From positions 1 to 22,459 of the forward strand of contig JACNFS010000129.1 in assembly GCA_014384515.1 (NCBI GenBank): 22,459 nt of DNA, in the 5' to 3' direction. Made by a program: the position numbers and the translations under genes. A model generated the notes under the pieces. That model ran no database searches and had not been told where the DNA came from. It saw only the letters and a program-made list of their open reading frames with translations. How positions within the stretch are numbered: position 1 is the stretch's first letter; the number at the start of each line of letters is the position of its first letter. Source of the DNA: Dehalococcoidia bacterium. GTDB lineage: Bacteria; Chloroflexota; Dehalococcoidia; GIF9; UBA5629. Shown one piece after another: positions 1,818 to 21,815 of the stretch.

Positions 1818-2855
1818 ATGGCTGAGGCGTTGCTTTATGATAGGCTTCATGGGCCTAGGGTGCGCTGCAATGTTTGCCAGTGGCGTTGTGTTATTGGCCC
1901 GGGCAAGTCTGGCGTTTGTCGAGTACGTCGAAATGACGACGGCGTCCTTCGTGTGCTTAACTATGCTGAGGTCTCGTCGGTAGCCGTTGACCCTATCGAG
2001 AAAAAACCCCTGTTCCATTTTTTCCCGGGGAGCTTGGCTTTCTCTCTGGGTACCTGGGGGTGCAACTTTCACTGTAGGCATTGCCAGAACTGGGAGATCT
2101 CTTGCATTGAAGAGCTGGCGGAAATGATGAGGCCTTCAAAAAGGATTTCACCGCAGGAAGCTGTGAAATCAGCCAAAGAACGCCATTGTGGTGGCATCGC
2201 CTGGACTTACAATGAGCCGAGTATCTGGTTTGAATATACACTGGACTCAGCGAAACTGGCCAAGAAGAACGGGCTTTACACTGTTTACGTGACAAACGGT
2301 TATCTTACGCCAGAGGCTTTGGATACTATTGGGCCTTATCTCGACGCCTGGCGGGTTGATATTAAGGGTTTTTCTGATGCTTTGTACCGGGACTTAGCCA
2401 AGATTTCCCGGTGGCGGGGGATTCTTGAGGTGGCTAAGAGGGCGCGAGAGAAATGGAGTATGCATGTTGAGGTGGTGACGAATGTAATTCCGACGATGAA
2501 TGATGATGAGGAGCAGCTAGAGGGCATTGCTGGCTGGATACGGGACGAACTGGGAGAACTAACGCCGTGGCATGTCACCCGGTTTTATCCTCAGCATAAC
2601 CTGACCCATTTGCCACCGACCCCGATAGCCAGCCTGGAGAAGGCTTATGATATTGGTAAGAGAGCCGGCTTGCGCTTTGTCTATTTGGGCAACGTCCCCG
2701 GTCATGGTGGAGAGAACACTGTTTGCTATTCTTGCGGCAAAGTGGTCATTCACAGGTTTGGCTATGAGACTGAAGTGGTTGGCGTTGACGGCTCAAAATG
2801 TAAGTTTTGCGGGGCTGAACTTAATGTGACAGCGACCCCAAGGCAACTGGCTTGA
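1818..2855 (+). CDS. amrS: AmmeMemoRadiSam system radical SAM enzyme (AmrS)
   Basis: This is a radical SAM enzyme of the AmmeMemoRadiSam type (345 aa). The radical SAM cysteine triad is CNFHCRHC, with Cys82, Cys86 and Cys89 ligating a 4Fe-4S cluster that cleaves SAM. An N-terminal cysteine group (Cys17, Cys20, Cys24, Cys34, in CNVCQWRC) and the following GKSGVCRVR segment are typical of this branch, which resembles pyruvate formate-lyase activating enzymes. The C-terminus carries two CxxC pairs (Cys303/306 and Cys328/331) that look like a zinc ribbon. The MEMO-like and AMMECR1 genes follow immediately, which is the diagnostic trio. The reaction of this conserved system is not established to my knowledge. 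The ribosome site before the ATG is weak. Confidence 0.93.
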   Translation: MAEALLYDRLHGPRVRCNVCQWRCVIGPGKSGVCRVRRNDDGVLRVLNYAEVSSVAVDPIEKKPLFHFFPGSLAFSLGTWGCNFHCRHCQNWEISCIEELAEMMRPSKRISPQEAVKSAKERHCGGIAWTYNEPSIWFEYTLDSAKLAKKNGLYTVYVTNGYLTPEALDTIGPYLDAWRVDIKGFSDALYRDLAKISRWRGILEVAKRAREKWSMHVEVVTNVIPTMNDDEEQLEGIAGWIRDELGELTPWHVTRFYPQHNLTHLPPTPIASLEKAYDIGKRAGLRFVYLGNVPGHGGENTVCYSCGKVVIHRFGYETEVVGVDGSKCKFCGAELNVTATPRQLA

Positions 2856-2866
2856 GGAGGTAGTTT

Positions 2867-3673
2867 ATGGCAGGGATAGTTTTTGGTTGTATTGTACCTC
2901 ATCCCCCGCTGCTGGTACCTGCTATCGGTGGAGGACAGGAGGCGGCGATATCAGCAACAACACAGGCTATGGAGCAATTAGCTGATAAGTTAGCCGGGCG
3001 GCATCCTGAAACAATTTTGATTATCAGCCCTCATGGAGAGTATCACTCTGATGCTATGGGCATACTTACTGCCAAATCATCGACCGGCGATCTAAGTAGT
3101 TGGGGCGTTCGGGGGCCTCGGCATGACTTTCATAATGACCTCGAAATGGTGGCACTTGTTCAGAAGGAAGCAAAAGCGGCTGGTATTGGCACAAAGTCTA
3201 TTGGTGAGAAGAGCTACCGGCTTGACCACGGGGTAATGGTGCCCATGCACTTCCTACTTTCTGGAGTGAAGGGGGTGCCGCTGGTGCCGCTCACGTTCTC
3301 CTGGCTTCCGTTGGAGACGCATTTCACGTTTGGTAAAGCGATTAGACGAGCTGCAGAGCAAAGTCAAAAGCAAGTAGCATTGGTGGCCAGCGGTGATCTT
3401 TCTCATCGACTTATTCCAGGGGCGCCAGCGGGTTACGAGCCTATGGGTAAAGTCTTTGACGAGAAACTGGTGAAGGCGTTATCATGTTTGGATACTGGGG
3501 ATATTTTGAATTTGGATAGGGAGCTTATTGAGCGGGCTGGAGAATGCGGCTTGCGCTCTTTTGTAATCCTTCTAGGTGCGCTGGATGGGCTCAGGGTAGA
3601 ACCCGAGATTCTTTCATACGAGGGACCTTTTGGGGTCGGCTATCTAGTAGCTTCTTTTGAAGTTGTGCCTTGA
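2867..3673 (+). CDS. amrB: AmmeMemoRadiSam system MEMO/LigB-family protein (AmrB-like)
   Basis: This 268-aa protein belongs to the MEMO1/LigB extradiol-dioxygenase-like superfamily. Candidate metal or active-site residues are His12 in VPHPPL, His56 in IISPHGEY, the LDHGVMVPMH segment (Asp120, His121, His128) and SGDLSH (Asp177, His180). The C-terminal YEGPFGVGY stretch is also conserved in the family as I know it. It begins 11 bases after amrS behind a strong GAGGAGGT ribosome site. In some Firmicutes the same LigB domain is fused to AMMECR1 in a single protein; here the two are separate genes. No dioxygenase substrate can be assigned. MEMO proteins are metal-binding, but their bacterial role is unresolved. 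Confidence 0.9.
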   Translation: MAGIVFGCIVPHPPLLVPAIGGGQEAAISATTQAMEQLADKLAGRHPETILIISPHGEYHSDAMGILTAKSSTGDLSSWGVRGPRHDFHNDLEMVALVQKEAKAAGIGTKSIGEKSYRLDHGVMVPMHFLLSGVKGVPLVPLTFSWLPLETHFTFGKAIRRAAEQSQKQVALVASGDLSHRLIPGAPAGYEPMGKVFDEKLVKALSCLDTGDILNLDRELIERAGECGLRSFVILLGALDGLRVEPEILSYEGPFGVGYLVASFEVVP

Positions 3674-3693
3674 GGTTCGTTTAAGGGGGTAGA

Positions 3694-4209
3694 ATGGAAA
3701 AGCAGCTTCACCCAATAGTAAAGCTGGCCAGAGAGGCGGTGGAAAGCTATGTTGGCCAGGACAAGGTACTCAAGCCAAAAGAGCTTACCGATGAAATGAA
3801 GCAGAGGTCTGGAGTTTTCGTGTCTATAAAGAAGCATGGTGAATTGAGAGGTTGCATTGGCACCTTTGAGCCAAGTAGAGCGAATGTAGCTGAAGAAATC
3901 GTTGCTAATGCTATTAGTTCAGCCACTCAAGACCCTCGCTTTGCATCGGTTGTGGTTTCTGAGCTAGGTGACCTGGAATACAGCGTGGATATCCTCACCG
4001 AGCCTGAACCGGTGGATGGTATTGACCAGCTTGACCCGAAGAAATATGGGGTAATTGTGGAGTGTGGGTTTAGGCGGGGGCTGTTGCTACCTGATCTCGA
4101 AGGTGTGGCCACTGCTGAAAAGCAGATCGAGATTTGTCGAGCTAAGGCTGGCATATCAGCTGATGAACCGATTAAACTGTACCGCTTTGAAGTGAGGAGA
4201 TACAAGTAA
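3694..4209 (+). CDS. amrA: AMMECR1 domain protein (AmmeMemoRadiSam system protein A)
   Basis: This 171-aa protein is essentially one AMMECR1 domain. The family hallmark [10 protein letters not shown] is at residues 51-60 and contains the invariant-looking Cys54. It is followed by the helical AVAEEI-like region, the DPRF motif, an [11 protein letters not shown] strand and a PEGV-like turn (LEGVAT). AMMECR1 proteins are near universal, and their biochemical activity is unknown. The gene lies 20 bases after the MEMO gene behind an AAGGGGGT ribosome site. Only one base separates its stop from the GTG start of the following tubulin-like gene, so it is almost certainly in the same transcript. Confidence 0.93.
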
Positions 4210-4210
4210 C

Positions 4211-5368
4211 GTGAGGTTGCTGATTATTGGTGTTGGCGACTGTGGCTGCAGGCTGGCTGGTGAGTTCGCCCGGTTAAACAAGGTGGCAAGAGCCAAGCGG
4301 CGAGTCAGCATAGTTAGCCGTGCCTACGCGATTAACGATGACCAGGCCAGCCTGGCGGCTTTGCCCAAGGCTGGGCGTGAATGGCTGCATCCTGTGTTGA
4401 TTCGCAGCTCGCTTGTAGGTGAAAACAAGTCGAATGAAGCTGGCACCCAACATATGCGTCAGGAGAGCGACCGGGTGCTGACGGCTATGAGAACGGGTGG
4501 TTTTTTTGAGGCGGATGCTTTTCTATTGATCGCTGGTGCCGCTGGAAGCCTTGGTTCTGGTGGAGTTCCAGTGATAGCCAAACTGTTCAAGGAGCGCTAT
4601 GTGGGTAAACCGGTCTATGCTCTCATTGTTCTTCCGTTTGAATCCGAGGCGGCCGACCCGCAATACGCTCATAATACGGCTACCTGTCTCAAGTCAATCG
4701 ATAAAGTGACTGACGCCGTGATTTTGGTGGATTACGGGGGGGTCGGAACGTGGGGAGACACGACACAGGTTGAGAGGATGGACGGAGTGAACAAAGATAT
4801 AGTTTTTTCATTTTATGACCTTCTTTGTGCTGGTGAGGCGGTTGGCTCAAAACATGTTGGAGCCAAAGTGCTGGATGCTGGCGATATAGTGCAAACGCTA
4901 ACAGGTTGGACAGCGATAGGCGTCGGCAGAACAAAATTCCGCGCGTCAAGATTTCCCTGGAGGAAGTCGCGGGATTTTCGGGAGACGGGCTCGGAAACGC
5001 TCAGGGCTATGGAGGCGATGAACTTGGCTTTGATTCGGTTGTCGATTGATTGCAAGTTGGAGGATGCTGGCAAAGCCCTGTATCTTCTTTCAACTCCGGC
5101 AAAACAAGCTAATATTGATATGGTCAAAGTTCTGGGGAATCGCCTGCGGGAGGTGGCAGGGAACGCTGAAATAAGAGACGGCAGTTTCTTCGGGGCTAGA
5201 GGTTTTGTCCAGGTTACTGTGGTGGTATCAGAGTTGGTTTATGTGGAGGCGATTAAGAATTACTATGACAGGGCGGTTAAATCAGCTCGGACGCCCAAAA
5301 CGGGGGAGGAGGCAGGGGGGAAGGCAGAGAGGAAGACAAAGAAGACGACGAAGAAGAAGGCAGATTAG
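4211..5368 (+). CDS. Divergent tubulin/FtsZ-like protein (paralog A)
   Basis: This is a 385-aa tubulin-superfamily protein, clearly paralogous to the two 393-aa copies elsewhere in the window. Shared landmarks are the N-terminal nucleotide-binding strand (GVGDCGCRLAGEF, residues 7-19), the VGKPVYALIVLPFE strand, the NTATCLKSI helix and the T7-type LDAGDI loop (Asp222, Asp225). Its nucleotide signature is altered: AGSLGSG at 111-117 where the others have AGGTGSG, GDCG instead of GQCG, and NDD instead of NTD at the loop near residue 42. It ends in a Lys/Arg-rich tail of about 25 residues that the others lack. GTG is the only sensible start, with AGGAG 11 bases upstream, and it is coupled to the AMMECR1 stop. 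A regulatory or non-polymerising role is possible but unproven. Confidence 0.85.
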   Translation: MRLLIIGVGDCGCRLAGEFARLNKVARAKRRVSIVSRAYAINDDQASLAALPKAGREWLHPVLIRSSLVGENKSNEAGTQHMRQESDRVLTAMRTGGFFEADAFLLIAGAAGSLGSGGVPVIAKLFKERYVGKPVYALIVLPFESEAADPQYAHNTATCLKSIDKVTDAVILVDYGGVGTWGDTTQVERMDGVNKDIVFSFYDLLCAGEAVGSKHVGAKVLDAGDIVQTLTGWTAIGVGRTKFRASRFPWRKSRDFRETGSETLRAMEAMNLALIRLSIDCKLEDAGKALYLLSTPAKQANIDMVKVLGNRLREVAGNAEIRDGSFFGARGFVQVTVVVSELVYVEAIKNYYDRAVKSARTPKTGEEAGGKAERKTKKTTKKKAD

Positions 5369-5470: not shown

Positions 5471-6841
5471 ATGACTCTTTTCGACTTAGATCAACTGGAA
5501 TCGAAGGGCAAAGCGACGCGTGGGATGGACTCTGAGTTGTCTGGTGATATGCCTTTAGCAGCTAGAATGCGGCCGCGAAATTTTGAGGAGTTTGTGGGGC
5601 AGAAGCATCTGGTGGGCGAGGGGCGGGTGCTAAGGAAGTGCATTGAGGCAGACCAGTTACCATCGATGATTTTTTGGGGCCCACCAGGCAGCGGCAAGAC
5701 GACCCTGGCTTTTGTTATTGCTAGCGTCACCAGGTCACACTTTAGTCCGCTGAGTGCAGTCAACGCGGGTGTGGCTGATTTGCGCCGCATAGTTGATGAG
5801 GCCAAGCACAGACTCAAGCTATCCGGGCAACGGACTGTCTTGTTTATTGATGAGATTCATCGATTTAATAAGGCTCAGCAGGATGTCATATTGCCCTTCG
5901 TGGAGAACGGCGTGGTAATTCTCATCGGTGCCACAACCGAGAATCCTTCCTTCGAGGTTATCTCTGCTTTACTCTCGAGATGCCGAGTGTTTACTCTAAA
6001 TTCATTAACTGATGAAGAGGTTCGCCATATTGTTGAACGAGCTATGAAAGACGAGGAGAGAGGGCTGGGGAAATTGAAGGTAGAGCTAGCTGAAGAGGCT
6101 TCAGCACATCTGGTTGTTATGTCTAACGGTGATGCTCGGGTGGGGCTCAATGCCTTGGAGATGGCAACTCAGGCTACTTCGCCGGAAGCTGATGGATATC
6201 GCAGACTCGGCCTGACCACCATCGAGGAAGCCCTACAGCATCGTGCTTTGCTTTATGACAAAAGTGGCGACCAGCACTATGATTTTATTTCGGCGCTTCA
6301 CAAGTCGCTACGTGGTTCAGATCCGGACGCAGCTTTGTATTGGCTGGGGCGAATGCTCGAGGCTGGAGAGGACCCTCTTTATGTTGCCCGACGCCTGGTG
6401 CGGTTTGCTTCTGAGGATGTGGGTATGGCCGATCCGCAAGCGTTGATGGTGGCTGTAGCCGTGCAACAAGCGGTGCATTTTGTGGGCATGCCTGAGTGCA
6501 ACCTGGCTCTGGCTGAGGCGGTAACTTATCTGGCTACGGCTCCAAAAAGCAATTCCCTCTATGTAGCCTATTCTCAGGTGCAGCAAGACGTTGAAGGAAG
6601 TCGCAATGAGCCGGTGCCACTTCACCTGCGCAATCCAGTTACCGGACTAATGCGAGGGCTGGGATATGGGAAAGGCTATGAACACGCCCATGATCATCCA
6701 GGGCACTTTGTAGAGCAACAGAACCTGCCGACTTCGCTTCAGGGCAAGCACTACTACTTCCCCAGCGACCAGGGCTACGAGAAGGAAGTGGATGCCAGAC
6801 TTGAAGCCTGGTGGGGGAGCAACCGGGAGAAGAAAGACTGA
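5471..6841 (+). CDS. rarA: Replication-associated recombination protein RarA (MgsA), AAA+ ATPase
   Basis: This 456-aa AAA+ ATPase of the RarA/MgsA/WRNIP1 family acts at stalled replication forks. Visible motifs are ARMRPRNFEEFVGQ at 31-44 (family N-box), Walker A GPPGSGKT at 70-77, Walker B LFIDEIHRFN with Asp127 and Glu128, sensor 1 GATTEN at 153-158 and the arginine-finger segment SRCRVF near 169-174. The C-terminal half has the family's tetramerisation region with YDFISALHKSLRGSDPDAALYWLGRMLE and the late KSNS and HLRN segments. Length matches the family. The ATG has only a weak ribosome site, and a 57-bp repeat separates it from the preceding gene, so it may have its own promoter. Confidence 0.96.
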   Translation: MTLFDLDQLESKGKATRGMDSELSGDMPLAARMRPRNFEEFVGQKHLVGEGRVLRKCIEADQLPSMIFWGPPGSGKTTLAFVIASVTRSHFSPLSAVNAGVADLRRIVDEAKHRLKLSGQRTVLFIDEIHRFNKAQQDVILPFVENGVVILIGATTENPSFEVISALLSRCRVFTLNSLTDEEVRHIVERAMKDEERGLGKLKVELAEEASAHLVVMSNGDARVGLNALEMATQATSPEADGYRRLGLTTIEEALQHRALLYDKSGDQHYDFISALHKSLRGSDPDAALYWLGRMLEAGEDPLYVARRLVRFASEDVGMADPQALMVAVAVQQAVHFVGMPECNLALAEAVTYLATAPKSNSLYVAYSQVQQDVEGSRNEPVPLHLRNPVTGLMRGLGYGKGYEHAHDHPGHFVEQQNLPTSLQGKHYYFPSDQGYEKEVDARLEAWWGSNREKKD

Positions 6842-7491
6842 GACGGAAGGCCGTATCTTTCCCCTGTGGCGATATTACCCTGGAAGGTGTTTGTTATTTC
6901 CCTGAGGGCGAAGGAGTATTCCCGGCCGTAGTCCTGTGTCATCCTCATTCTCTTTACGGCGGCTCGATGGACAACAACGTTATTCTGGCGGTGGGTTCAA
7001 CCCTGGTTAACAAGTCCACAATTGCCTTCATGTTTAACTTTCGTGGGGTAGGCGGCAGTCAGGGCAGCTTTGGAGGTGGCGTTGCTGAGCAGGAGGATGT
7101 GGCAGCAGCCATAAGCTGGCTAGCTTGTCAACCCGAAGTCGACGCAGGTAGAATGGGGCTGGTCGGCTATTCCTTTGGTGCCGCGGTGGCTTTGCCTGTT
7201 GCCCATAGTGACAAACGGGTTAAGGCGGTGACGCTTATCTCGCCGCCTCTTGAGCCATCACAAATGCCGCAGCTAAAGGAGTGTGCTAAGCCCAAGCTCA
7301 TAGTCTGTGGGACTGAGGATTTTGTGGTTTCGCTTGAGAAAGCGGAGCTGATGAATCGAGAGGCGGCCGAACCAAAGCAATTTGAGCTTGTTTCTGGGGC
7401 TGACCATTTCTGGTGGGGGCATGAGGTGGTGCTGGCAGAGAAAGTGGCAGCTTTCTTTGGCGGTCTATTTGGGAGTGATAGTGCTGAATGA
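6811..7491 (+). CDS. Alpha/beta hydrolase (226 aa)
   Basis: This is an alpha/beta-hydrolase fold protein, predicted cytoplasmic, with a readable catalytic triad: nucleophile Ser121 in GYSFGA, acid Asp170 in CGTEDFVV and His199 in GADHFWWG. The oxyanion region is HPHSLYGG near 44-51, and the NFRGVGGSQG segment at 76-85 is typical of the small esterase/dienelactone-hydrolase-like group. The frame opens with GTG at 6811, overlapping the last 31 bases of rarA. The ribosome site is poor, and no in-frame ATG precedes the conserved AVSFPCGDITLEG region, so GTG 6811 is the best available start. The overlap implies translation coupled to rarA. The substrate is unknown. Confidence 0.88.
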   Translation: MGEQPGEERLRRKAVSFPCGDITLEGVCYFPEGEGVFPAVVLCHPHSLYGGSMDNNVILAVGSTLVNKSTIAFMFNFRGVGGSQGSFGGGVAEQEDVAAAISWLACQPEVDAGRMGLVGYSFGAAVALPVAHSDKRVKAVTLISPPLEPSQMPQLKECAKPKLIVCGTEDFVVSLEKAELMNREAAEPKQFELVSGADHFWWGHEVVLAEKVAAFFGGLFGSDSAE

Positions 7492-7587: not shown

Positions 7588-7905
7588 TCAGTCCTCGAGC
7601 TTGTCAGGTGCTTCGCTCTCCTGCTCTTTGTATTCTGGCAAATAGTCCGCGAGATTCCTGCCCTGAAAGTAAACCTCGCAGACCAGCCTACCGCGTTCTA
7701 TCCCGCGCGGCGATCCTAACTCAACTTTCTTATTCTGGATAAGGATGGAAAGCTTCTGTTCAGCAGCCATCGCCCCTTTTCCGGTCTTGGGAGCATTGTA
7801 GCCAGTCGCTTGCACGCGATTTCCGGTCCTGTTCTCCAATTCCCAGCCCGGAGATACATCAAGTGTATTACCATCAATAACCGCTACTACGGCAAATGTC
7901 TCCAT
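7588..7905 (-). CDS. SNase-like (thermonuclease fold) protein with substituted catalytic residues
   Basis: This 105-aa protein matches the staphylococcal-nuclease fold in outline: FAVVAVIDGNTLDV at 4-17, RVQATGYNAPK at 30-40, a helix around AAEQKLSILIQNKKVEL, then RGRLVCEVYFQGRNLADYL. Aligning by eye to the classical enzyme, the calcium and catalytic positions are changed: Asp21 to Asn13, Arg35 to Gln32, Asp40 to Asn37 and Glu43 to Lys40. Only the Arg87 equivalent (Arg73) remains. It is therefore probably a non-catalytic nucleic-acid or protein-binding version. A GAGG ribosome site sits 5 bases before the ATG. It is the last gene of a minus-strand run and converges on the hydrolase gene. Confidence 0.7.
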   Translation of the reverse strand: METFAVVAVIDGNTLDVSPGWELENRTGNRVQATGYNAPKTGKGAMAAEQKLSILIQNKKVELGSPRGIERGRLVCEVYFQGRNLADYLPEYKEQESEAPDKLED

Positions 7906-8086
7906 AACTGCCTCGGTGCGAACTCGACCCTAGCACCCGACAATTATACATTCTCTGGCGTGACCGCACACGGTACCGGTCTCGATGCGAGCGCATGCCA
8001 CGGGCCCTCGGGGCAGAGAGGCCCCACAACAAAGCACCACCTACAAATAGCACCTCCGTCCGTTTGTTTCTCGTTCTAGCACCCAT
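7874..8086 (-). CDS. Possible small membrane ORF (70 aa)
   Basis: This weakly supported ORF starts MGARTRNKRTEV and has one hydrophobic stretch (VLFVGGALLWGL) after a basic N-terminus, as in a small inner-membrane or signal-anchored peptide. The main support is position: its ATG overlaps the zinc-ribbon stop by 11 bases, and its end overlaps the SNase-like start by 32 bases, consistent with translational coupling. The Arg/Ser-rich C-terminal half looks less protein-like and could be chance. No family is recognised. Confidence 0.35.
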   Translation of the reverse strand: MGARTRNKRTEVLFVGGALLWGLSAPRARGMRSHRDRYRVRSRQRMYNCRVLGSSSHRGSYGDICRSSGY

Positions 8087-8309
8087 CTCGTGATTTGTGG
8101 CGAGCGTGTGGTTTCTCATGTTTTTCAAACTCCGCTTCGCTCACAGGCCTACAGGACTTAAGATCCCCATTCTCTATTGTGGTCATAAATGGTGCCCTGC
8201 ATTTCCAACAGCGGAAGGGCCCCTCATAAGTTGGCTCAATCAACGAGAAACCGTTCCCTGCGCTGCACTCGGGGCACTGTATATTGATCCGGCACGAGAT
8301 TTCGCACAT
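8076..8309 (-). CDS. Small zinc-ribbon protein (77 aa)
   Basis: This small cysteine-rich protein has CPEC at 12-15 and CWKC at 34-37, spaced as a single zinc ribbon, plus Cys2, Cys6 and Cys53. The segment between the pairs (FSLIEPTYEGPFRC) is typical of ribbon beta-hairpins that bind nucleic acid or serve as adaptors. Its ATG overlaps the stop of the PRC-barrel gene in a TAATG arrangement, strong evidence that the two are translated together. No enzymatic motif is visible and the role is unknown. Confidence 0.72.
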   Translation of the reverse strand: MCEISCRINIQCPECSAGNGFSLIEPTYEGPFRCWKCRAPFMTTIENGDLKSCRPVSEAEFEKHEKPHARHKSRDGC

Positions 8310-8533
8310 TACCGATTCTTGCTCAATTCATCACGAGAAATGTTCACCTTGATCTTGCTATTTTTGACCTCGAGCACATCTTGAGGTGAAAAAAAGAGGT
8401 CTCTGTGCGGCGGTTTTCTGTTGACCACAAATTTGCTGACTTCACCCGTCAAGGTATTGTGCATCAGATGGTCAACCGTTCCCAAAAGTCGGCCATTCTT
8501 GTCTACTACCTCGGCTCCATATTTAATTTGCAT
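8309..8533 (-). CDS. PRC-barrel domain protein (about 74 aa)
   Basis: This is a short PRC-barrel-like protein. The domain begins MQIKYGAEVVDKNGRLLG and has the expected beta-strand rhythm: GTVDHLMHNTLTGEVSKFVV, then LFFSPQDVLEVKNSKIKVNI. PRC-barrels occur in RimM and in photosynthetic reaction-centre subunit H and often act as adaptors that bind RNA or protein. Three in-frame starts are possible: TTG at 8557, ATG at 8545 and ATG at 8533. I chose 8533 because the domain starts there and AGG lies just upstream. The stop overlaps the start of the zinc-ribbon gene. Confidence 0.72.
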   Translation of the reverse strand: MQIKYGAEVVDKNGRLLGTVDHLMHNTLTGEVSKFVVNRKPPHRDLFFSPQDVLEVKNSKIKVNISRDELSKNR

Positions 8534-8651
8534 TTTTCCTGTCATCCTTCGCTTCAAAACCGGTAGCTTCTCGGCATGCTAAGAGCCTCGAAGTTCACTC
8601 TTCCACGTATATTGTTTCGGGGCTTTTGCTATTGAGGCATCGGCCGGCGAC

Positions 8652-8921
8652 CTAGGCCTTCAACACAACCAGCTTTGGGCCTTCAGCGGCATCTTCAACG
8701 CTGAGGATCAACTTGTCAGCCAGATCAGCGACATCTTCCCCTATTAGCAACACCTTTGAGCCCTCGTATTCTATGACCTGGTCTCCTTCTGCCCGCCTGT
8801 CCAGCGCTAGACCGAAGTTTTCGGGTGACCTCAACTCTAGCCTTAGGACTATTTCCGGGTCACTTGTATGGTCCAGCAATCTCTCCCTCAACTGTTCCTT
8901 AGCATTATCTGTCACAATCAT
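8652..8921 (-). CDS. IscA/HesB-like protein without cysteines (paralog 1)
   Basis: This 89-aa protein has the layout of the HesB/IscA (Fe-S biosynthesis) fold: an N-terminal helix TDNAKEQLRERLLD, the strand PEIVLRLEL, FGLALD, and the hallmark GDQVIEYEGSKVLLI at about 46-60, then a C-terminal region where A-type carriers have CGCG. It contains no cysteine, so it cannot bind an Fe-S cluster in the IscA manner. Three more members of this group lie downstream on the other strand. The ribosome site GGGAGG lies upstream of the ATG. The gene heads the minus-strand run with the PRC-barrel and zinc-ribbon genes, separated from the former by about 118 bases. Function unknown. Confidence 0.75.
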   Translation of the reverse strand: MIVTDNAKEQLRERLLDHTSDPEIVLRLELRSPENFGLALDRRAEGDQVIEYEGSKVLLIGEDVADLADKLILSVEDAAEGPKLVVLKA

Positions 8922-9346
8922 AGCCCTTTCCTCCCTTCAGCGCCGAATAATCGCTGGTGACTTCCTTAACCTTGTGTTCCTCCGGTGACTCTCGTATAGT
9001 TCTGCGGAACAGGTCAATACTCGCCCCTTTCTATATCATTGTACCCAGCCTCGGGCTGGTTGAACATACAGCATCTGGGTTATTCAAGCAACAAAAAAGG
9101 AGTATCCCAGTATAATCCTTATGGGGAAACCGTTGTGTAGTGGAGCGACCAGGCTGTTTCACGGCGAGGTAGAGCAGTCTTCACGGTTTTTTGTCATATT
9201 GCCAGGATTTGGACACAGCTGCCCTAGTCGGCTTCTGGCTTGTTGACTTGTTAATGTCGGGGGTGTTACGCTGTTACCATATCTCACCAACCATGGGAAC
9301 TAGAAGCTGGGAAGGCATGTCGAAGTGATTGTGTGGGAGTGGGGCG
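8922..9346. other. Divergent intergenic region
   Basis: This 425-bp stretch lies between the divergent HesB-like gene and the response regulator. It contains a small perfect hairpin (CCAGCC, TCG, GGCTGG at 9045-9059), an isolated TATAAT at 9111-9116 and a TTGACT at 9243-9248 that could be a -35 for the regulator, though the 17-18 nt downstream hexamer (TACGCT) is poor. A 41-codon ORF at 9120 on the plus strand has no supporting features and is not called. Confidence 0.4.
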
Positions 9347-10039
9347 ATGAAAGAGATCAAGGTGTTGATAGTAGATGACAGGGAGGTCTTCCGGGAAGGT
9401 CTGGCTAGATTGCTGGAAGAACAACAGCATATTAAGGTTGTTTCTTGGTGTGCGGGCAAGCAGGCTATTGGCATGGTCGAAAAGGTCAAACCTGACTTGG
9501 TTCTGATGGATACGGACCTTTCGGAATGTGACTCTATCGATGTCGTTCGGCAAGTCACTGAGTCATCTCCAGAGGTAAAGATAGCTATGTTCAGCGAATC
9601 TGTGGATCAAGCCAGGCTTTTCGCTTCCGTTGAGGCCGGTGCTAGCGGATACCTTGTCAAGGATCTGTCTGTGGATAATCTTGTCAAATCTATTGACCTG
9701 ATCTCAGAAGGCAGAGTTGTCATCTCTCCTCTTCTTTCAAAGAAATTCGTTGACGAGTTCACCGTGCTCAGGGAAGAGAAGAGAGCAAGGGGTACCGAGG
9801 AGGAATCGGATTTATCAGAAAGAGAGACGGAGATCTTAAGACTGGTAGCCGAAGGCTACACCAATAAGGAGATAGCCCAGAAACTGTGCATTGCTGAGAA
9901 TACAGCCAAGGTTCATGTCAAGAATATTCTGCAGAAACTGGAATTGCGTAATCGGCAACAAGCGGCAGCATATGCCGCGGAGCACGGCCTGGTAACCGGA
10001 GTAGGCGATGGGGAGGACGATCACGAAAGCGGTGACTAG
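9347..10039 (+). CDS. NarL/FixJ-family (LuxR-type) response regulator, orphan
   Basis: This is a two-domain response regulator of 230 aa. The receiver domain (about 1-120) has the acidic pair Asp10/Asp11 in VDDREVFREGL, the phospho-acceptor Asp55 in LVLMDTDLSE, the switch residue Ser83 in AMFSES and Lys105 in GYLVKDLS. The DNA-binding domain carries the LuxR signature LSERETEILRLVAEGYTNKE and then IAENTAKVHVKNILQKL (156-198). An acidic tail follows. The frame opens at TTG 9329, but the ATG at 9347 has a GGAG site 7 bases upstream and starts directly at the receiver strand, so it is preferred. No histidine kinase lies in the window, so its input is unknown. Transcription ends at the strong terminator just downstream. 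Confidence 0.93.
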   Translation: MKEIKVLIVDDREVFREGLARLLEEQQHIKVVSWCAGKQAIGMVEKVKPDLVLMDTDLSECDSIDVVRQVTESSPEVKIAMFSESVDQARLFASVEAGASGYLVKDLSVDNLVKSIDLISEGRVVISPLLSKKFVDEFTVLREEKRARGTEEESDLSERETEILRLVAEGYTNKEIAQKLCIAENTAKVHVKNILQKLELRNRQQAAAYAAEHGLVTGVGDGEDDHESGD

Positions 10040-10078
10040 CGGCCAATAACAGAAAGCGAAATAACCAAAAGCATGTCC

Positions 10079-10110
10079 AAAGGGGTTATCGTGAGATAAC
10101 CCCTTTTTTT
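10079..10110 (+). terminator. Rho-independent terminator of the response regulator
   Basis: A perfect stem GGGGTTATC/GATAACCCC (10082-10090 and 10095-10103) with a GTGA tetraloop is followed by seven T residues. Flanking A and T residues extend the stem. This is a textbook intrinsic terminator, 43 bases after the stop codon. Confidence 0.95.
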
Positions 10111-10214
10111 GCTTGAAATACCCTACATGCGGTATGGCTGCGGAGTTTGGCCTGCGATACAATACTTCTGTGGGGATGAAAATGCTTGGTTTGAATGTGT
10201 TAGTGACATGCCAA

Positions 10215-10229
10215 TTGACGGTTGGTCAA
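10215..10229. promoter_or_regulatory. Possible operator-like palindrome
   Basis: TTGAC, five bases, then GTCAA forms a short perfect inverted repeat about 55 bases before the small membrane gene. It could be a regulator site or a -35 element (TTGACG), but a 15-bp palindrome can occur by chance. Confidence 0.2.
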
Positions 10230-10282
10230 AGGTCGATGCTCATAAGTGGATAGGGAGCAGCACAAGATGGCAGAGAACTACT

Positions 10283-10495
10283 ATGGCGAAGTCTGATTGG
10301 CTCTGGTTTTACCTGATGTGGGCAGGTTTCATTATATCCCTCCCCGTCGTCTATTTGCATCACGTGTTCAAGGAGACGGTCGTGTGCCGTCAGCCAAAAG
10401 GTGTCCGTTTCAAAAGGGTGCCGGTCAAAGGAGAATCACCTGGCGAAGATAGAAGCAATGCTGATGTGATGGGGAGTGGGCCTTCGAGTCTATGA
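10283..10495 (+). CDS. Small single-pass membrane protein (70 aa)
   Basis: This hypothetical protein starts MAKSDWLWFYLMWAGF and has one strong transmembrane segment (about residues 5-27, WLWFYLMWAGFIISLPVVYLH), then a basic cytoplasmic-looking tail (KGVRFKRVPVKGE). The same frame extends upstream to 10109, but that part overlaps the terminator and does not look protein-like. The ribosome site is weak (AGAGAA). No family is recognised. It precedes the second HesB-like gene on the same strand. Confidence 0.5.
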   Translation: MAKSDWLWFYLMWAGFIISLPVVYLHHVFKETVVCRQPKGVRFKRVPVKGESPGEDRSNADVMGSGPSSL

Positions 10496-10545
10496 GTCTT
10501 TCGTAGTCTTCTGACCGGAGTGGAAGGTCACCAAAGAGAGAGATC

Positions 10546-10863
10546 ATGATGCTAGTAATTACCGCGAAAGCCAAAGAAAAGTTGAGAGAGATTGCGGAAA
10601 AGGAAGCTCCAGAGACTGGTCCGCACGACGCTGCCACTGCGCTTAGGCTTCGCCTGAGCGGTCTGGATAACGGCAGCCACAGCATCGAATGCCGATTCGG
10701 TATCGACCAGGCGCAAGCAGGGGATGAAGTTGAAGATATCGGCGGAGCGAAGCTGGTTATTGACCCATCATCATTCGGGTATCTGCGTCGCATAAGTGCG
10801 ATTCTAGATTTATCACAAGTAGGCCCGGGAGAACAGCTTATTCTGATAATTGAAGGGAGTTAA
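10546..10863 (+). CDS. IscA/HesB-like protein lacking the CxC motif (paralog 2)
   Basis: At 105 aa this is the longest of the four HesB-like proteins in the window. It shows the N-terminal helix ITAKAKEKLREIAEKE, the strand TALRLRL, then AGDEVEDIGGAKLVIDPSSFGYLRRI at about 64-89, which closely follows the A-type carrier pattern (DxxSxxYL). The C-terminal CGCG-type cysteines are absent, and the only cysteine is in IECRFG. A non-cluster role is inferred. It sits 55 bases upstream of the tubulin-like gene on the same strand. ATG 10546 and ATG 10549 are equally possible starts. Confidence 0.75.
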   Translation: MMLVITAKAKEKLREIAEKEAPETGPHDAATALRLRLSGLDNGSHSIECRFGIDQAQAGDEVEDIGGAKLVIDPSSFGYLRRISAILDLSQVGPGEQLILIIEGS

Positions 10864-10918
10864 CAACAGGTCTGTTCAGCATCGAATCAACTTGCAAGCG
10901 GGAAGCAAGGAGGTAGCC

Positions 10919-12100
10919 GTGAAATTAATGATTATTGCGTTAGGGCAGTGTGGCTCCCGAGTTGGGGATGAGTTTGTTCGCCTGAATAAGCGGGCACAAT
11001 CGCAGTGGGGCATAAACATAGTTACGGGAGTCTTTGCTGTCAACACAGACCAGACTGACCTCAGCGGCTTGTCTGATATCGGTTCGGACTACATGCATCG
11101 TATTCTAATCGGCGGGCGCAGGACCTATGGCCACGGTGTTGGCAAGGTAAACGAGATGGGCGCTGAATTGGCCAGGGACGACGGTGATAAGGTTATCGAT
11201 GCTGTGAGAACTGCACGCAATTTCTATCAGACCGACGCTTTCCTGCTCATCGCGGGCGGAGCTGGCGGCACTGGCTCCGGGGCCATATCAATAATTGCCC
11301 AGATGATCAAAGAGCGTTACATAGGCAAACCGGTGTTTGCTCTCATCGTTCTCCCGTTCGAGCACGAAGAGACGGCCGAGCTGAGAAGCGTATATAACAC
11401 AGCGACCTGTCTCAAATCCATCCACTCAGTAGCTGATGCTGTCTTCCTGGCTGACAACCAGCGGTATGTCAGAAAAGACGCCAGCCTGGCAATGAACCTA
11501 CAGAGAATAAACTCAAGAATCGTTGAGCCATGGTACGATATGATGTGTGCCGGCGAGATAACCAAGTACAGTCATGTTGGCGCCAAGACATTGGACGCGG
11601 GCGACATTATGCAGTCCCTCGACGGCTGGACAGCCATCGGTGTCGGCAGAGCCGACATACCGCGTGGCCTACATTTCTCCCGGCAAGAGGGTAAAGACAG
11701 CTTCAAGGAAAAGACCGACGAGAATCTAAGAGCCATGCAGGCCATGGATGCCGCTGTGAGTGAACTTTCCATCACGTGCAGTCCTGAGGATGCTGGTAGG
11801 GCTCTTTATCTCTTGTCTGCCCCGGCCAAGGAAATGACTATGGACATTGCCAAGGGTCTCGGCGATTATCTCAGAGAGATGGCAGAAAACGCTGTAATCA
11901 GGGCCGGTGACTTCCCTAGAGGGGGAAGCTCTGTCGATGTCACCATAATATTCTCTCAGTTGGCTTTTGTGCAGAAGATAAGGGACTACTACGACCGAGC
12001 CTCAGCCTTTGCCGACACTCAGAAGGAACGCATAAAGGAAACGACCGGCCGGCTCCGCGACATGGAGGACGCATCTAAAGGATTGCCGAGCTTAATCTAG
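10919..12100 (+). CDS. Tubulin/FtsZ-like GTPase (paralog B, 393 aa)
   Basis: This protein has the full set of tubulin-superfamily nucleotide motifs: LGQCGSRVGDEF at 8-19 (GQCG as in tubulin), FAVNTDQTDL at 39-48, the exact tubulin signature pattern AGGTGSG at 115-121, and the T7-type loop TLDAGDI with Asp226 and Asp229, which aligns with the catalytic NVDFAD loop of FtsZ except for Thr in place of Asn. It should bind GTP and may polymerise. The frame opens at 10850, but the GTG at 10919 has a perfect AAGGAGGT site four bases upstream and gives a protein of exactly the length of paralog C, so it is the start. The two are highly similar throughout, including the C-terminal KERIKETTGRLRDMED helix. 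The partner and function are unknown. Confidence 0.92.
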   Translation: MKLMIIALGQCGSRVGDEFVRLNKRAQSQWGINIVTGVFAVNTDQTDLSGLSDIGSDYMHRILIGGRRTYGHGVGKVNEMGAELARDDGDKVIDAVRTARNFYQTDAFLLIAGGAGGTGSGAISIIAQMIKERYIGKPVFALIVLPFEHEETAELRSVYNTATCLKSIHSVADAVFLADNQRYVRKDASLAMNLQRINSRIVEPWYDMMCAGEITKYSHVGAKTLDAGDIMQSLDGWTAIGVGRADIPRGLHFSRQEGKDSFKEKTDENLRAMQAMDAAVSELSITCSPEDAGRALYLLSAPAKEMTMDIAKGLGDYLREMAENAVIRAGDFPRGGSSVDVTIIFSQLAFVQKIRDYYDRASAFADTQKERIKETTGRLRDMEDASKGLPSLI

Positions 12101-12208
12101 CCACTCCGAGTCCATGTCCTTGCCAAGCTCATCTAACAGAGAGGTCAGTCTACGAAAAGGAGAAGCACGAAGAGCGAAGTATCCTGAGACCTGATTGGGA
12201 GGGATGTC

Positions 12209-12811
12209 ATGTCCAAACGTGGTCGAGCAAAGAAAAAGAATAAGCAACAGCAGCAGCAACGTCACATTTCGACACCATCAGCTAACACGATAGAGGCTGC
12301 CCATCCTCTACCCACCGCAGCCAAACTCCGGTCCGACAAAGAGACTGTGGAGGTCTCAAATCACCTCATTGTCCGGGCTCCAGCGGAGCACTGCTTTAAC
12401 ATACTAGCCAAGCAGCTTGAAGAGACGCCGAAGTGGGACCCGATGGTAGTCGATGTCAAGCCGCTATCCCCCAGAAGACGCCAAACCGAGGCAACGAGCC
12501 TTATCACATTCAGGCTAGGCAGAAAGGAGGTTAAAACCCTCGCCATGATCTCCTCGTATCACCCTAACCGATCGATAGCCTGGGTTTCCAGTGACAGGCC
12601 TAGGGTGAGGGAGGATTGGACGCTTGAGCCAGGGCGAAATGGCACGGCCATTAGCGTTACTCTTAGCTACGATGCTCCGCGGTCGGTTGTAAGTAGCTTT
12701 CTTGATAGGTTCATGCGGGAGCAAATAGAGCAGGCTATCAATCAAATACTCAGCAAGTTCAGGGAATTTGCTGAGAGTAGCAGTGACCAGCGAAATGACC
12801 ACAAAGAATGA
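12209..12811 (+). CDS. SRPBCC/START-fold protein with basic N-terminus (200 aa)
   Basis: The central part (about 45-190) has the SRPBCC/polyketide-cyclase-like layout: VSNHLIVRAPAEHCFNIL at the start, KWDPMVVDVKPL, a central beta-sheet (SLITFRLGRKEVKTLAMI, SIAWVSSD), DWTLEPGRNGTAISVTLSYD and the long C-terminal helix FLDRFMREQIEQAINQILSKFREF. This fold binds hydrophobic ligands. The first 45 residues are unusual: a Lys/Arg cluster and a glutamine run (KKKNKQQQQQR). GGGAGG precedes the ATG. The ligand is unknown. It heads a run of small genes on this strand. Confidence 0.8.
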   Translation: MSKRGRAKKKNKQQQQQRHISTPSANTIEAAHPLPTAAKLRSDKETVEVSNHLIVRAPAEHCFNILAKQLEETPKWDPMVVDVKPLSPRRRQTEATSLITFRLGRKEVKTLAMISSYHPNRSIAWVSSDRPRVREDWTLEPGRNGTAISVTLSYDAPRSVVSSFLDRFMREQIEQAINQILSKFREFAESSSDQRNDHKE

Positions 12812-12833
12812 ACCGACCAGGAGAAGTCGTGGG

Positions 12834-13106
12834 ATGAGCCAAGAAATCCGTTTTGAAACAATTACAATGAAAGATGATACATCAGGCAAAGATATAGACG
12901 GCGTGGCTGTTATCCGTGGCGGGCACCGAGTATCGGTATTACCTGACGCAGATAGGCTAAACCGTGCCCTTAGTCTGCCCCTTGAGGAAATCGAGCATGT
13001 TGCCAACAACCTGCGCGAACTTTTAAACAGAGACCCGACCGCGGATGAGCGGGAGTTCTGGCGAGCGATTCTTGATTTTCGGCGAAGCCAGAACCAGAGG
13101 GGCTGA
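12834..13106 (+). CDS. Hypothetical protein (91 aa)
   Basis: Not recognised. It starts MSQEIRFETITMKDD, is mixed charged, has a central strand pair (GVAVIRGGHRVSVLPD) and two predicted helices (LNRALSLPLEEIEHVANNLRELL and DEREFWRAILDFRRS). The frame is open from 12768, but AGGAG lies 10 bases before the ATG at 12834, which is a better start than the ATG at 12795 that overlaps the previous gene. Spacing to the SRPBCC gene is 22 bases, so they are probably co-transcribed. Confidence 0.6.
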   Translation: MSQEIRFETITMKDDTSGKDIDGVAVIRGGHRVSVLPDADRLNRALSLPLEEIEHVANNLRELLNRDPTADEREFWRAILDFRRSQNQRG

Positions 13107-13277
13107 AGAAAACGTAAAGTCAGTCAAAGCCTGCTGTACAATGCGAAGCACTGACTATGGGCGCGATTAAACCGATGAGCCGTAGGCCGGTTAAGCATGG
13201 AGAGGCTCAGTGAGAAAGAACTATAGAGAGAGTCGAAAGCAAAGACGCTGGCAACAGGTTTGTATAGGTGATTGCGC

Positions 13278-13538
13278 ATGGTAGCGGTGACTGAACGAGC
13301 AGCCAGGGAATTGAAGGCAAAGCTGCTGGGTGAGACCTCACATCCAGAGGTTGGCCTCAGGCTACTACCCACTCCGGGTGGTAGGTTTATGTTGGTCTTA
13401 GACACCGAGCTATCTGGAGACCAGGTCATAGAGTATCAGGGTTCCAAGGTTCTCCTCGTCGGCATTGAGTATTTTCGTGCCCTCGAAGCGGTAACCATAG
13501 ATTGCCAAGATACCCATCAGGGGCTGTTCTGTTTGTGA
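13278..13538 (+). CDS. IscA/HesB-like protein lacking the CxC motif (paralog 3)
   Basis: This 86-aa protein follows the same plan as its neighbours: helix TERAARELKAKLLGE, strand PEVGLRLLP, GGRFMLVLD, the GDQVIEYQGSKVLLVG hallmark, then DCQDTHQGLFCL. It has two cysteines but not the CGCG arrangement of A-type carriers. An upstream in-frame TTG at 13272 exists. The ATG at 13278 has AGGTG at a better distance and is chosen. It lies 22 bases before paralog 4, the closest relative in the window, suggesting tandem duplication. Confidence 0.75.
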   Translation: MVAVTERAARELKAKLLGETSHPEVGLRLLPTPGGRFMLVLDTELSGDQVIEYQGSKVLLVGIEYFRALEAVTIDCQDTHQGLFCL

Positions 13539-13560
13539 GATAACAGCGAGGAGGTAAGAA

Positions 13561-13833
13561 ATGCTAAACGTGGCTGAAAGTGCCAAGCAAATGCTGAAGG
13601 AGGCCCTAGCAGCCAAGACGGATGATCCAGAGGTTACCTTGAAGTTGGTGACTAACGAATCTGGGCGGTTTACTTTAGTACTGGGCCAAGAGAAGGAAGG
13701 CGACCAGGTGGTAGAACACGAGGGGTCGAAAGTCCTATTAATAGACGGGGAACTATCCGTACTTCTCGAGGGACGGACGCTCGACTGCCAGGACAGTCCT
13801 GAGGGCCGCTGGCTTATGATGTCCAAAGCGTAA
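13561..13833 (+). CDS. IscA/HesB-like protein lacking the CxC motif (paralog 4)
   Basis: This 90-aa protein has helix AESAKQMLKEALAAK, strand PEVTLKLV, GRFTLVLGQ, GDQVVEHEGSKVLLIDGE and a tail DCQDSPEGRWLMM that mirrors paralog 3 (DCQDTHQGLF). It has a single cysteine, and the Fe-S-binding CxC is absent. A strong GAGGAGGT ribosome site lies 6 bases before the ATG. It is tandem with paralog 3. It is expected to share the IscA-like beta fold, with an unknown ligand or partner. Confidence 0.78.
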   Translation: MLNVAESAKQMLKEALAAKTDDPEVTLKLVTNESGRFTLVLGQEKEGDQVVEHEGSKVLLIDGELSVLLEGRTLDCQDSPEGRWLMMSKA

Positions 13834-13889
13834 CTTGAGGTTGCTGGGGAAATTACAGGCCAAAGCGAAAGGCCAGCCTGGTTAGAGCT

Positions 13890-13988
13890 ATGGGAAAGAA
13901 AGGAAAGCAGAAGAAAGCAGGCCAAAAGGCGCACAAGACGAGTTCCGACTATCTCAGGAAAGGCCCAAAGAAATCTAGGGCCGGTTAA
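13890..13988 (+). CDS. Possible very basic small protein (32 aa)
   Basis: This small ORF begins MGKKGKQKKAGQKAHKTSS and ends KGPKKSRAG. Eleven of 32 residues are Lys and two are Arg. Its composition resembles the N-terminus of the SRPBCC protein (MSKRGRAKKKNK) and small nucleic-acid-binding tails. It sits between paralog 4 and the RRM gene in the same orientation with short gaps (56 and 33 bases). The ribosome site is weak. It may be a real small RNA- or DNA-binding peptide. Confidence 0.4.
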   Translation: MGKKGKQKKAGQKAHKTSSDYLRKGPKKSRAG

Positions 13989-14021
13989 ACTTGAGCAGAA
14001 GCAAAGTGAAGGGGCAGCAAT

Positions 14022-14348
14022 ATGAATATCCATGTGGGTAACTTGTCCTATGAGGTAACTGGAGAGGAGTTGCGGCAAGAATTCATGGCTTTTGGAGAGG
14101 TGAAATGTGCAACTATCGTCAAAGACAAACATAGCGGGCAATCTAGGGGATTTGCATTTGTCGAAATGACATCGAGTTCCGAAGGCCAAGCGGCAATTGA
14201 TGGCCTCACAGGAAAAACACTAAACGACCGGACGCTTGATGTTAGCGAGGCTCGCCCTCGTTCTGACAGTAGAGGTGGCAGACCCCACGGAAGGAAGACA
14301 GGCGGCGGGTTTCGTGGAGGTGGCAGGCCAAGACAGAGAAGATACTGA
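14022..14348 (+). CDS. RRM-type RNA-binding protein with Gly/Arg tail (108 aa)
   Basis: This single RNA recognition motif protein is of the kind found in cyanobacteria and some other bacteria. RNP2 is IHVGNL at 3-8 and RNP1 is RGFAFVEM at 42-49. Both carry the aromatic residue expected in RNP1 (Phe44, Phe46). The RRM ends near 82, followed by a tail rich in Arg and Gly (GGGFRGGGRPRQRRY) that adds nonspecific RNA affinity. Bacterial members are often cold-induced. GAAGGGG lies before the ATG. It belongs to the run of small plus-strand genes. Confidence 0.93.
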   Translation: MNIHVGNLSYEVTGEELRQEFMAFGEVKCATIVKDKHSGQSRGFAFVEMTSSSEGQAAIDGLTGKTLNDRTLDVSEARPRSDSRGGRPHGRKTGGGFRGGGRPRQRRY

Positions 14349-19113: not shown

Positions 19114-19171
19114 AAAGTTAAGAACCAAAAAAACAAAGAATATTTTTGTATTTTACATTTTAACTTTTGAC

Positions 19172-20633: not shown

Positions 20634-21815
20634 CTAGATCAAACTAGGCAAACTTTTGGCTGCATCCTCCATGTCACGCAGCCGGCCGGTGGTTTCCTTT
20701 ATCCGCTCCTTCTGGGTCTGGGCGAAAGCTGAAGCCCGGTCGTAGTAGTCCCTTACCTTCTGGACGAAGGCTAGCTGAGAGAGTATGATGGTGACATCGA
20801 TAGAGTTTCCCCCTCTGGGGAAGTCGCCGGCTCTGATTACAGCGTTTTCTGCCAGCTCTCGGAGGTAGTCACCCAGACCTTTGGCGATATCCATAGTCAT
20901 GTCCTTGGCTGGGGCTGACAGGAGGTATAGGGCTCTACCTGCATCCTCAGGGCCGCAGGTGACGGAGAGCTCACTCACCGCGGCGTCCATGGCCTGCATG
21001 GCCCTTAGACTTTCGTCGCCCTTTTCCTTGTAGCTGACTTTGCCTAATTGCCAGGGAAAGCGGAAACCACGCGGTATCTCGGCTCTGCCAACACCGATGG
21101 CCGTCCAGCCGTCGAGTGATTGCATGATGTCGCCGGCATCGAGTGTCTTGGCACCAACGTGCTGGAATTTGGTTATCTCACCAGCACACATCAAGTCGTA
21201 CCAAGGCTCAACGATCGCTGCGTTTATTCTCTGCAAGTTCGTTGCCAGGCTGGCATCTTTCCTGACATACCGTTGATTATCAGCCAGGAAGACACTATCA
21301 GCTACTGAATGGATAGACTTGAGACAGGTCGCTGTGTTATAGACGCTTCTCAGCTCGGCCATCTCTTCGTGCTCGAAGGGGAGAACGACGAGGGCGTAAA
21401 CTGGTTTGCCTATATAACGCTCCTTGAGCATCTGGGCAATTATTGCTATCGCGCCGGAGCCAGTGCCGCCAGCTCCTCCGGCGATGAGCAGGAACGCATG
21501 CGTCTGGTAGAAATTAGGTGCGGTTCTAACAGCATCGATTACCTTATCACCGTCTTCCCTGGCCAATTCGGCACCCATCTCGTTCACCTTGCCGACACCA
21601 TGTCCCCAGGTCTTGCGCCCGCCGATGAGAATGCGGTGCATATAGTCGGAGCCGATCTGAGACAAACCAGTAAGGTCAGTCTGGTCAGTGTTCACGGCGT
21701 AGGTTCCAGTAACTATATTTATGCCCCACTGTGACTGTCCCCGCTTATTGAGGCGAACAAACTCATCAGCAACTCGGCAACCGCACTGTCCCAATCCAAT
21801 AACCAATAATCTCAT
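20634..21815 (-). CDS. Tubulin/FtsZ-like GTPase (paralog C, 393 aa)
   Basis: This is the near twin of paralog B: by eye well over 80% identical, with all motifs at the same positions (GQCG at 9-12, NTD at 42-44, AGGTGSG at 115-121, LDAGDI with Asp226 and Asp229). Differences cluster in a few loops, for example FRFPWQLGKVSYKEKGDES against LHFSRQEGKDSFKEKTDEN. The MRLLVIGLGQCGCRV start resembles paralog A's (MRLLIIGVGDCGCRL) more than paralog B's. A perfect AAGGAGGT sits five bases before the ATG and a strong promoter lies upstream. It should bind GTP. Chromosomal division FtsZ is a separate lineage; this is not the classical FtsZ. Confidence 0.92.
   Translation of the reverse strand: MRLLVIGLGQCGCRVADEFVRLNKRGQSQWGINIVTGTYAVNTDQTDLTGLSQIGSDYMHRILIGGRKTWGHGVGKVNEMGAELAREDGDKVIDAVRTAPNFYQTHAFLLIAGGAGGTGSGAIAIIAQMLKERYIGKPVYALVVLPFEHEEMAELRSVYNTATCLKSIHSVADSVFLADNQRYVRKDASLATNLQRINAAIVEPWYDLMCAGEITKFQHVGAKTLDAGDIMQSLDGWTAIGVGRAEIPRGFRFPWQLGKVSYKEKGDESLRAMQAMDAAVSELSVTCGPEDAGRALYLLSAPAKDMTMDIAKGLGDYLRELAENAVIRAGDFPRGGNSIDVTIILSQLAFVQKVRDYYDRASAFAQTQKERIKETTGRLRDMEDAAKSLPSLI

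Follow-up and report, generated by a model that had tools for sequence, protein, structure and literature searches.

This report concerns a tubulin-like gene, here called tubA, and the operon in which it lies on a 22,459-nucleotide stretch of DNA from a Dehalococcoidia bacterium (an uncultured lineage of Chloroflexota; GenBank assembly GCA_014384515.1, contig JACNFS010000129.1). This stretch, hereafter the window, is an entire contig (G000:C95) of a 1.38-Mb draft genome that is 77% complete. We show that tubA follows the genes of the AmmeMemoRadiSam set, which encode the radical SAM enzyme AmrS, a dioxygenase-like protein and AMMECR1, and that this order is conserved in three families of the order to which the bacterium belongs. 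tubA falls in a single clade of CetZ-like proteins that has lost a GTP-site signature and is held under purifying selection, and its genome also carries a canonical CetZ paralogue. The interpretation that we favor, tentatively, is that tubA is no longer a GTPase and serves canonical CetZ as a subunit or cap; it would be expressed together with the AmmeMemoRadiSam enzymes and probably act alongside them. The block that contains tubA is composed of the following genes:

1818..2855, plus strand: amrS, AmmeMemoRadiSam radical SAM enzyme (TIGR04337, 301.7 bits, cut-off 220)
2867..3673, plus strand: slot B, LigB-type extradiol dioxygenase homologue (PF02900, 153 bits; TIGR04336, 35.6 bits, cut-off 26)
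3694..4209, plus strand: AMMECR1, AmmeMemoRadiSam protein A (PF01871, 165 bits, cut-off 25; TIGR04335, 141.4 bits, cut-off 99)
4211..5368, plus strand: tubA, CetZ-like tubulin paralogue with degenerate T1, T3 and T4 loops (PF00091, 70.1 bits, cut-off 33; CetZ_C PF21011, 44.2 bits, cut-off 21.6)
5471..6841, plus strand: rarA/mgsA, AAA+ ATPase, the operon gene after tubA (PF12002, 232 bits)
6811..7491, plus strand: hydrolase-like gene, presumably of the alpha/beta-hydrolase fold, last of the conserved block (family F5, present in 12 of 21 loci)

Alignments of AmrS display a CxxxCxxC motif plus extra cysteine clusters at the N and C termini, and AMMECR1 retains the motif LRGCIGT. The AMMECR1 stop codon (TAA, 4207-4209) is separated by a single C from the GTG start of tubA at 4211, and a GAGGAG that resembles a ribosome-binding site lies within the 3′ end of AMMECR1, ahead of that GTG. 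Open reading frames and profile matches, with all three AmmeMemoRadiSam models above cut-off, agree here with a preliminary description of this DNA, which had reported amrS, a slot B gene and AMMECR1 followed after one base by a GTG-start tubulin-like gene. tubA appears to be co-transcribed with the genes for AmrS, LigB/Memo and AMMECR1.

Conservation was assessed in 84 genomes of the order, drawn from families f1 (30), f2 (1), f3 (52) and f4 (1); the window's own genome is counted among them, as it is in all of our genome sets (60, 84, 245 and 301 genomes). Members of the tubA subfamily, termed A-type, were recognized with a profile of the linked tubulins, on which nearly complete A-type proteins score 502-653 bits and others at most 458; the gene of G009, truncated by a contig end, scores 306 bits. 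A-type genes are found in 28 of the 84 genomes (our own, 25 relatives with full-length genes, and G009 and G010, whose genes are cut by contig ends), with a family distribution of 26/30 in f1, 1/1 in f2, 1/1 in f4 and 0/52 in f3. AMMECR1 is present in 67 (f1 25/30, f2 1/1, f4 1/1, f3 40/52), including 27 of the 28 A-type genomes, the exception being G010, and the f1 genomes that have no A-type gene (G001, G008, G018 and G019) have no AMMECR1 either. In 26 of the 27 genomes with both (all but G007), AMMECR1 and tubA share a strand, tubA is the downstream one and 8-622 bases separate it from the edge of the AMMECR1 match; it was the next gene wherever loci were read, save in G006 and G012. Among 61 named loci, 25 carry an A-type gene, with AMMECR1 upstream in 23 of the 24 that could be tested (L120, which starts inside its A-type gene, was excluded); the other 36, many of them short, contain no AMMECR1, amrS or slot B match. 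Named and unnamed loci derive largely from one set of genomes, so neither adjacency count is independent of the other.

Tight spacing is not a general property of this arrangement. The distance from the AMMECR1 stop to the tubA start is 1 base in the window and in G004, and over these two and 23 named loci it ranges from -4 to 613 (three named loci have -4, 3 and 15, eighteen lie at 46-180, and the last two have 609 and 613). The linkage is retained even where tubA identities fall to about 45% and, because it is kept in 26 of 27 genomes despite such divergence, it is more than chance. The preliminary description had allowed that the operon might be fortuitous and proposed a neighborhood check; the order recurs in f1, f2 and f4, which excludes an accident of this one genome. 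Gene order could also be inherited and nothing else, an ancient co-transcribed block in which tubA is a CetZ duplicate with an unrelated job, and the entire retention of the block from amrS to a TPR gene in many loci, together with the single clade formed by A-type genes, accords with this. We consider it unlikely, as the order has outlasted both the divergence of tubA to about 45% identity and the turnover of other neighbors.

tubA exceeds both CetZ cut-offs, and structure prediction assigns it the fold of CetZ. It scores 19.9 bits against the FtsZ model TIGR00065 (cut-off 295.2) and has no match at E ≤ 1 to PF13809 (Tubulin_2), which we take to represent FtsZl1. Its T4 loop, GAAGSLGSG, fails the pattern GGG[TS]G[ST]G. 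Among 212 relatives (distinct sequences with more than 310 aligned residues, shorter ones such as the cut gene of G009 having been dropped), the T4 signature GGTGSG is missing from 138, and these 138 form exactly one clade; 111 of them come from a protein search, from the best 120 of 890 matches. The GGTGSG string served to divide the two groups, so the independent findings are limited to the clade, T1, T3 and what stands at the Thr position: nearly all of the 138 have Asp in place of the T1 Gln and a shortened T3 loop, and all 138 have a hydrophobic L, V, I or F at the T4 Thr position. In Haloferax volcanii CetZ1 and CetZ2 (PDB 4b46 and 4b45), by contrast, T4 reads GGGTGSG and GGGSGSG where tubA has AGSLGSG, T1 has GQ rather than GD, and the T3 loop is longer. 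Purifying selection on A-type genes, estimated from ratios of nonsynonymous to synonymous substitution (dN/dS) in pairs of 75-99.5% identity with dS under 1.6, is strong and equal to that on canonical CetZ. These patterns suggest that tubA has lost GTP binding, and the new element here is, as judged by sequence, a CetZ-like clade without the GGTGSG signature that contains tubA. A rebuilt T4 loop might instead still bind nucleotide: GTP in a changed manner, or a different ligand. This strikes us as rather improbable: the loop is conserved (G112 and G115 in 138/138, S116 in 135/138), though these three residues are shared with canonical CetZ, and the hydrophobic replacement of Thr throughout the clade, along with the changed T1 and shortened T3, argues against it.

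Two canonical tubulins accompany tubA in the window:

20634..21815, minus strand: tubC, canonical CetZ-like, convergent downstream (PF00091, 106 bits; PF21011, 52 bits)
10916..12100, plus strand: tubB, second canonical copy, 87% identical to tubC

tubC carries the motifs GQCG, GHGVGK, GGAGGTGSG and LDAGDI, and tubA is 48-49% identical to tubB and tubC (48.6% to tubC). No third full-length tubulin copy was found in the f1, f2 and f4 relatives compared. Contig C27 of the same genome encodes a tubulin-family gene with a higher PF00091 score, probably ftsZ. The convergent placement of tubC recurs in G005, G012, G013, G023, G030 and G032, which make up six of the seven other f1, f2 and f4 genomes with AMMECR1 and a second tubulin on one contig, always within about 10 kb; the counter-example is the single-contig genome G025, whose second tubulin, a fragment, lies 508 kb off. 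Of 28 f3 genomes with both AMMECR1 and a canonical CetZ, 17 have the CetZ gene downstream on the AMMECR1 contig, in convergent orientation and at 1.8 to 16 kb, a count that includes a CetZ fragment in G059 and comes from a list that omits two genomes with a tubulin match but without AMMECR1 (G557 and G567). As a separate observation, canonical CetZ genes occur as tandem pairs, usually about 4 kb from start to start, in many other Dehalococcoidia loci (L113, L116, L117, L125-L129, L131-L136 and others) that have no AMMECR1 match. CetZ_C scores within the class are bimodal, at 94-137 bits in f14, f35, f50, f64 and genus g20 and 33-79 bits elsewhere, and the class may contain two distinct CetZ lineages (represented in genomes such as G262, G149, G033 and G038).

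The T7 loop of tubA, LDAGDI, keeps two acidic residues. We propose that tubA no longer binds or hydrolyzes GTP, that its fold is retained, as is its T7 face in this genome, and that it may act as a non-catalytic subunit or cap for tubC, pairing with it through T7. It would be made in one operon with AmrS, LigB/Memo, AMMECR1 and usually RarA, and the shared operon would reflect tubA working with, or positioning, the enzyme set; tubA would then have a functional tie to the radical SAM, dioxygenase-like and AMMECR1 proteins. A related but distinct view, in which this lineage-specific tubulin-fold protein without GTPase motifs serves the AmmeMemoRadiSam enzymes alone, as client or scaffold, appears doubtful. 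If tubA is a client or partner of the trio, it is by its alignment an unusual one, with its GTP-site motifs gone.

The identity of the slot B protein bears on what the trio might do. Slot B of the window passes the cut-off of the NCBI model AmmeMemoSam_B (TIGR04336), and its designation as plain MEMO was rejected: it reaches 26.5 bits against Memo (PF01875), below the gathering score of 27, as opposed to 153 bits against LigB (PF02900). Residues H12 and H56 align with H13 and H62, iron ligands of an aminophenol dioxygenase (ligand numbering as given in PMC11081632), and E226, which aligns with a Glu of a related dioxygenase subunit, would be the third ligand. The metal ligands of MEMO1 are described as two His and one Cys, as opposed to the 2-His-1-Glu set of extradiol dioxygenases. 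The analogy to human MEMO1, whose connection with microtubules had been invoked for this operon in the preliminary description, is weak here because slot B is LigB-type, with 2-His-1-Glu rather than 2-His-1-Cys ligands.

Memo itself is matched in 22 of the 28 A-type genomes (for example at 270-275 bits in G003, G005 and G011; partial in G014 and G025), adjoining AMMECR1 in 21 of these, the other being G010, which has no AMMECR1. A LigB-type protein (146-161 bits) adjoins AMMECR1 in the window, G004, G007, G013, G030 and G032, and Memo is matched in none of these six; G011, G015, G020 and G026, all of which have Memo, carry weaker LigB matches (69-83 bits) away from the cluster. This exchange suggests that the slot may require a dioxygenase-like metal site. 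In f3, Memo is present in 23 of 28 genomes searched and is on a separate contig from AMMECR1 in 22/22 genomes with both. We also observed that in G025 (CP070642; L075:4325-5956) a single open reading frame upstream of AMMECR1 encodes an HpaB-like 4-hydroxyphenylacetate hydroxylase followed by a Memo-domain end; it could be either a fusion or an assembly artefact. The named locus L091, which matches the G025 locus L075, has no amrS match.

It is conceivable that the AmmeMemoRadiSam enzymes chemically modify tubA, in a radical SAM plus dioxygenase-like step for which tubA is a dedicated lineage client. The tight gene order, the restriction of A-type genes to AMMECR1 genomes (27/28, with the one exception cut at a contig end) and the presence of Memo or LigB in the cluster where tubA is found (f1, f2 and f4), as opposed to its separation in tubA-less f3, would all fit. 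Yet many genomes have the trio, or AMMECR1, and no tubA, and another substrate must therefore exist; the residues conserved only in A-type proteins (Y39, R88, G118, E268, L274, A300, E320, F326 and Y344) include no Cys or Lys and no clear modification site, so that no target is singled out; and the co-variation of Memo and tubA is probably a single evolutionary transition. We regard modification as highly improbable. With respect to the proposal in the preliminary description that the trio acts on a tubulin, the conserved linkage stands, and modification or regulation has no direct support; AMMECR1 is widespread without tubA, and rarA is linked to tubA about as tightly.

Several observations weigh against a subunit or cap working beside these enzymes. 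The first Asp of T7 is retained in 96 of the 138 A-type sequences and lost in 42, so a T7-based cap cannot hold for every A-type protein, and some nucleotide binding may persist even though the motif loss speaks against it. The 111 A-type sequences from the protein search carry no genomic context, so linkage is not readable from them. Small genes (ParDE-like in G006) part tubA from AMMECR1 in G006 and G012, and G007 keeps tubA together with rarA and tubC but has its AMMECR1 and LigB genes on another contig. The whole block may have had one ancestor, and hence few independent events may lie behind the conserved order. All 40 of the f3 genomes with AMMECR1 (of 52) are without an A-type gene, and outside the order AMMECR1 is present in 49 of 190 class genomes without CetZ_C. 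Beyond the order, 31 class genomes match both CetZ_C and AMMECR1, and a comparison by eye of contigs and positions found the two close together in none: 11 genomes have them on a single contig, in every case at a distance above 150 kb, and the rest have them on separate contigs. CetZ_C is present in 22 of 301 genomes of the phylum, all within the class. At the level of whole genomes, AMMECR1 is found in 47/52 genomes with CetZ_C and 52/193 others (p = 4e-17), and outside the order in 31/36 and 49/190 (p = 1e-11), neither value being corrected for relatedness; this co-occurrence may only track anaerobic lineages.

The gene after tubA also deserves consideration. In 22 of the 24 named loci that could be tested (L147, which ends inside its A-type gene, was excluded), rarA is the first conserved gene after tubA, about as often as AMMECR1 precedes tubA, and tubA and rarA overlap by 4 bases in four of nine genomes measured (G005, G011, G020 and G027), which likewise counts against a tie to the upstream enzymes. 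tubA could function with RarA, in replication or cell-cycle coupling, with AMMECR1 merely upstream in an old AMMECR1-RarA pair. Consistent with this, amrS, AMMECR1 and rarA are consecutive, with neither tubA nor Memo, in three of six f3 loci read (G034, G042 and G031; G037, G045 and G058 have no rarA beside AMMECR1), and it is with rarA that tubA remains in G007. In G030 (f2) and G032 (f4), on the other hand, tubA adjoins AMMECR1 and rarA is not next. We think a RarA partnership improbable, and the probabilities that we attach to the favored and rival interpretations overlap in part. Gene order alone cannot name the working neighbor of tubA.

Farther downstream, most f1 loci read have the hydrolase gene followed by the TPR gene, and the window has about 8 kb between them (about 7588-15400) that holds tubB, a LuxR-type response regulator and a polyketide-cyclase-like gene. 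Other features are:

18751-20542, plus strand: terminase-large-subunit-like gene and an upstream gene of 120 amino acids (Terminase_6C, 18.5 bits, below the cut-off of 22.6)
8652-8921, minus strand, and 10546-10863, 13272-13538 and 13561-13833, plus strand: four small proteins, alike by eye

The terminase-like family (F6) occurs in 11 of 21 loci; in many of the order's genomes it faces the canonical tubulin gene in convergent orientation. Three of the small proteins were scanned against Pfam, giving one sub-threshold HesB/IscA match (Fe-S_biosyn, 18.5 bits). Proteins of the HesB/IscA type usually form a three-cysteine scaffold; these four contain 0, 1, 2 and 1 cysteines and do not conform to it. 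The genes between AMMECR1 and tubA are a ParDE-like toxin-antitoxin pair in G006 (L071:8196-8691) and a member of small family F20 in G012 (L072:11452-11691); F20 and F21 follow AMMECR1 in the f3 genome G058 (L084:1614-2109).

Like AmrS, the products of cofG and cofH are radical SAM enzymes. Archaeal cetZ genes lie near cofactor-synthesis enzymes, including cofG and cofH, in the cetZ1 neighborhoods described by Brown and Duggin (2023; PMC9856176), who propose a role for cetZ1 in organizing biosynthesis; this may be regarded as a precedent of a kind, in other organisms and with another enzyme set, and the passages compared do not mention loss of GTP motifs. CetZ-like proteins of Chloroflexota-Dehalococcoidia have already been published by Santana-Molina et al. 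(2023; PMC9871819), from the same class and, like tubA, with a CetZ-like C terminus; the main text does not contain AMMECR, and the passages compared describe no clade that lacks the GTP signature. FtsZl1 and FtsZl2 (Makarova and Koonin 2010; PMC2875224) are likewise bacterial tubulin-superfamily proteins recognized from genome context, but the published cases are associated with a vWA protein, a GTPase and OmpA-family proteins or are confined to Proteobacteria, and tubA has no PF13809 match. Relative to the AmmeMemoRadiSam system as modeled by TIGR04335, TIGR04336 and TIGR04337, all of which pass here, the window differs in its LigB-type slot B and in a tubulin-fold gene within the block. A paper by Burroughs (2019) on Memo-Ammecr1 systems is cited in PMC7159879, and PMC11461353, a paper on copper, names AMMECR1, MEMO1 and tubulin once each. 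Among the papers listed by a literature search, in a collection that lacks most subscription journals, none ties AMMECR1 or AmmeMemoRadiSam to a tubulin-family gene; of 41 papers naming two or more of AMMECR1, FtsZ and CetZ, the 15 listed do not name AMMECR1.

AmrS, the MEMO/LigB-type proteins and AMMECR1 are enzymes of unsolved function, and a conserved operon partner offers a defined candidate for experiments with them. Relatives of AMMECR1 and MEMO range from archaea to humans. If tubA is indeed a client or scaffold of these enzymes, a cytoskeleton-type protein would be tied to the unsolved trio in a bacterium, and their chemistry would become testable on one protein. A CetZ-like clade that lacks the phosphate loop and is strongly selected would represent a natural tubulin fold without a nucleotide switch, maintained beside a canonical paralogue.

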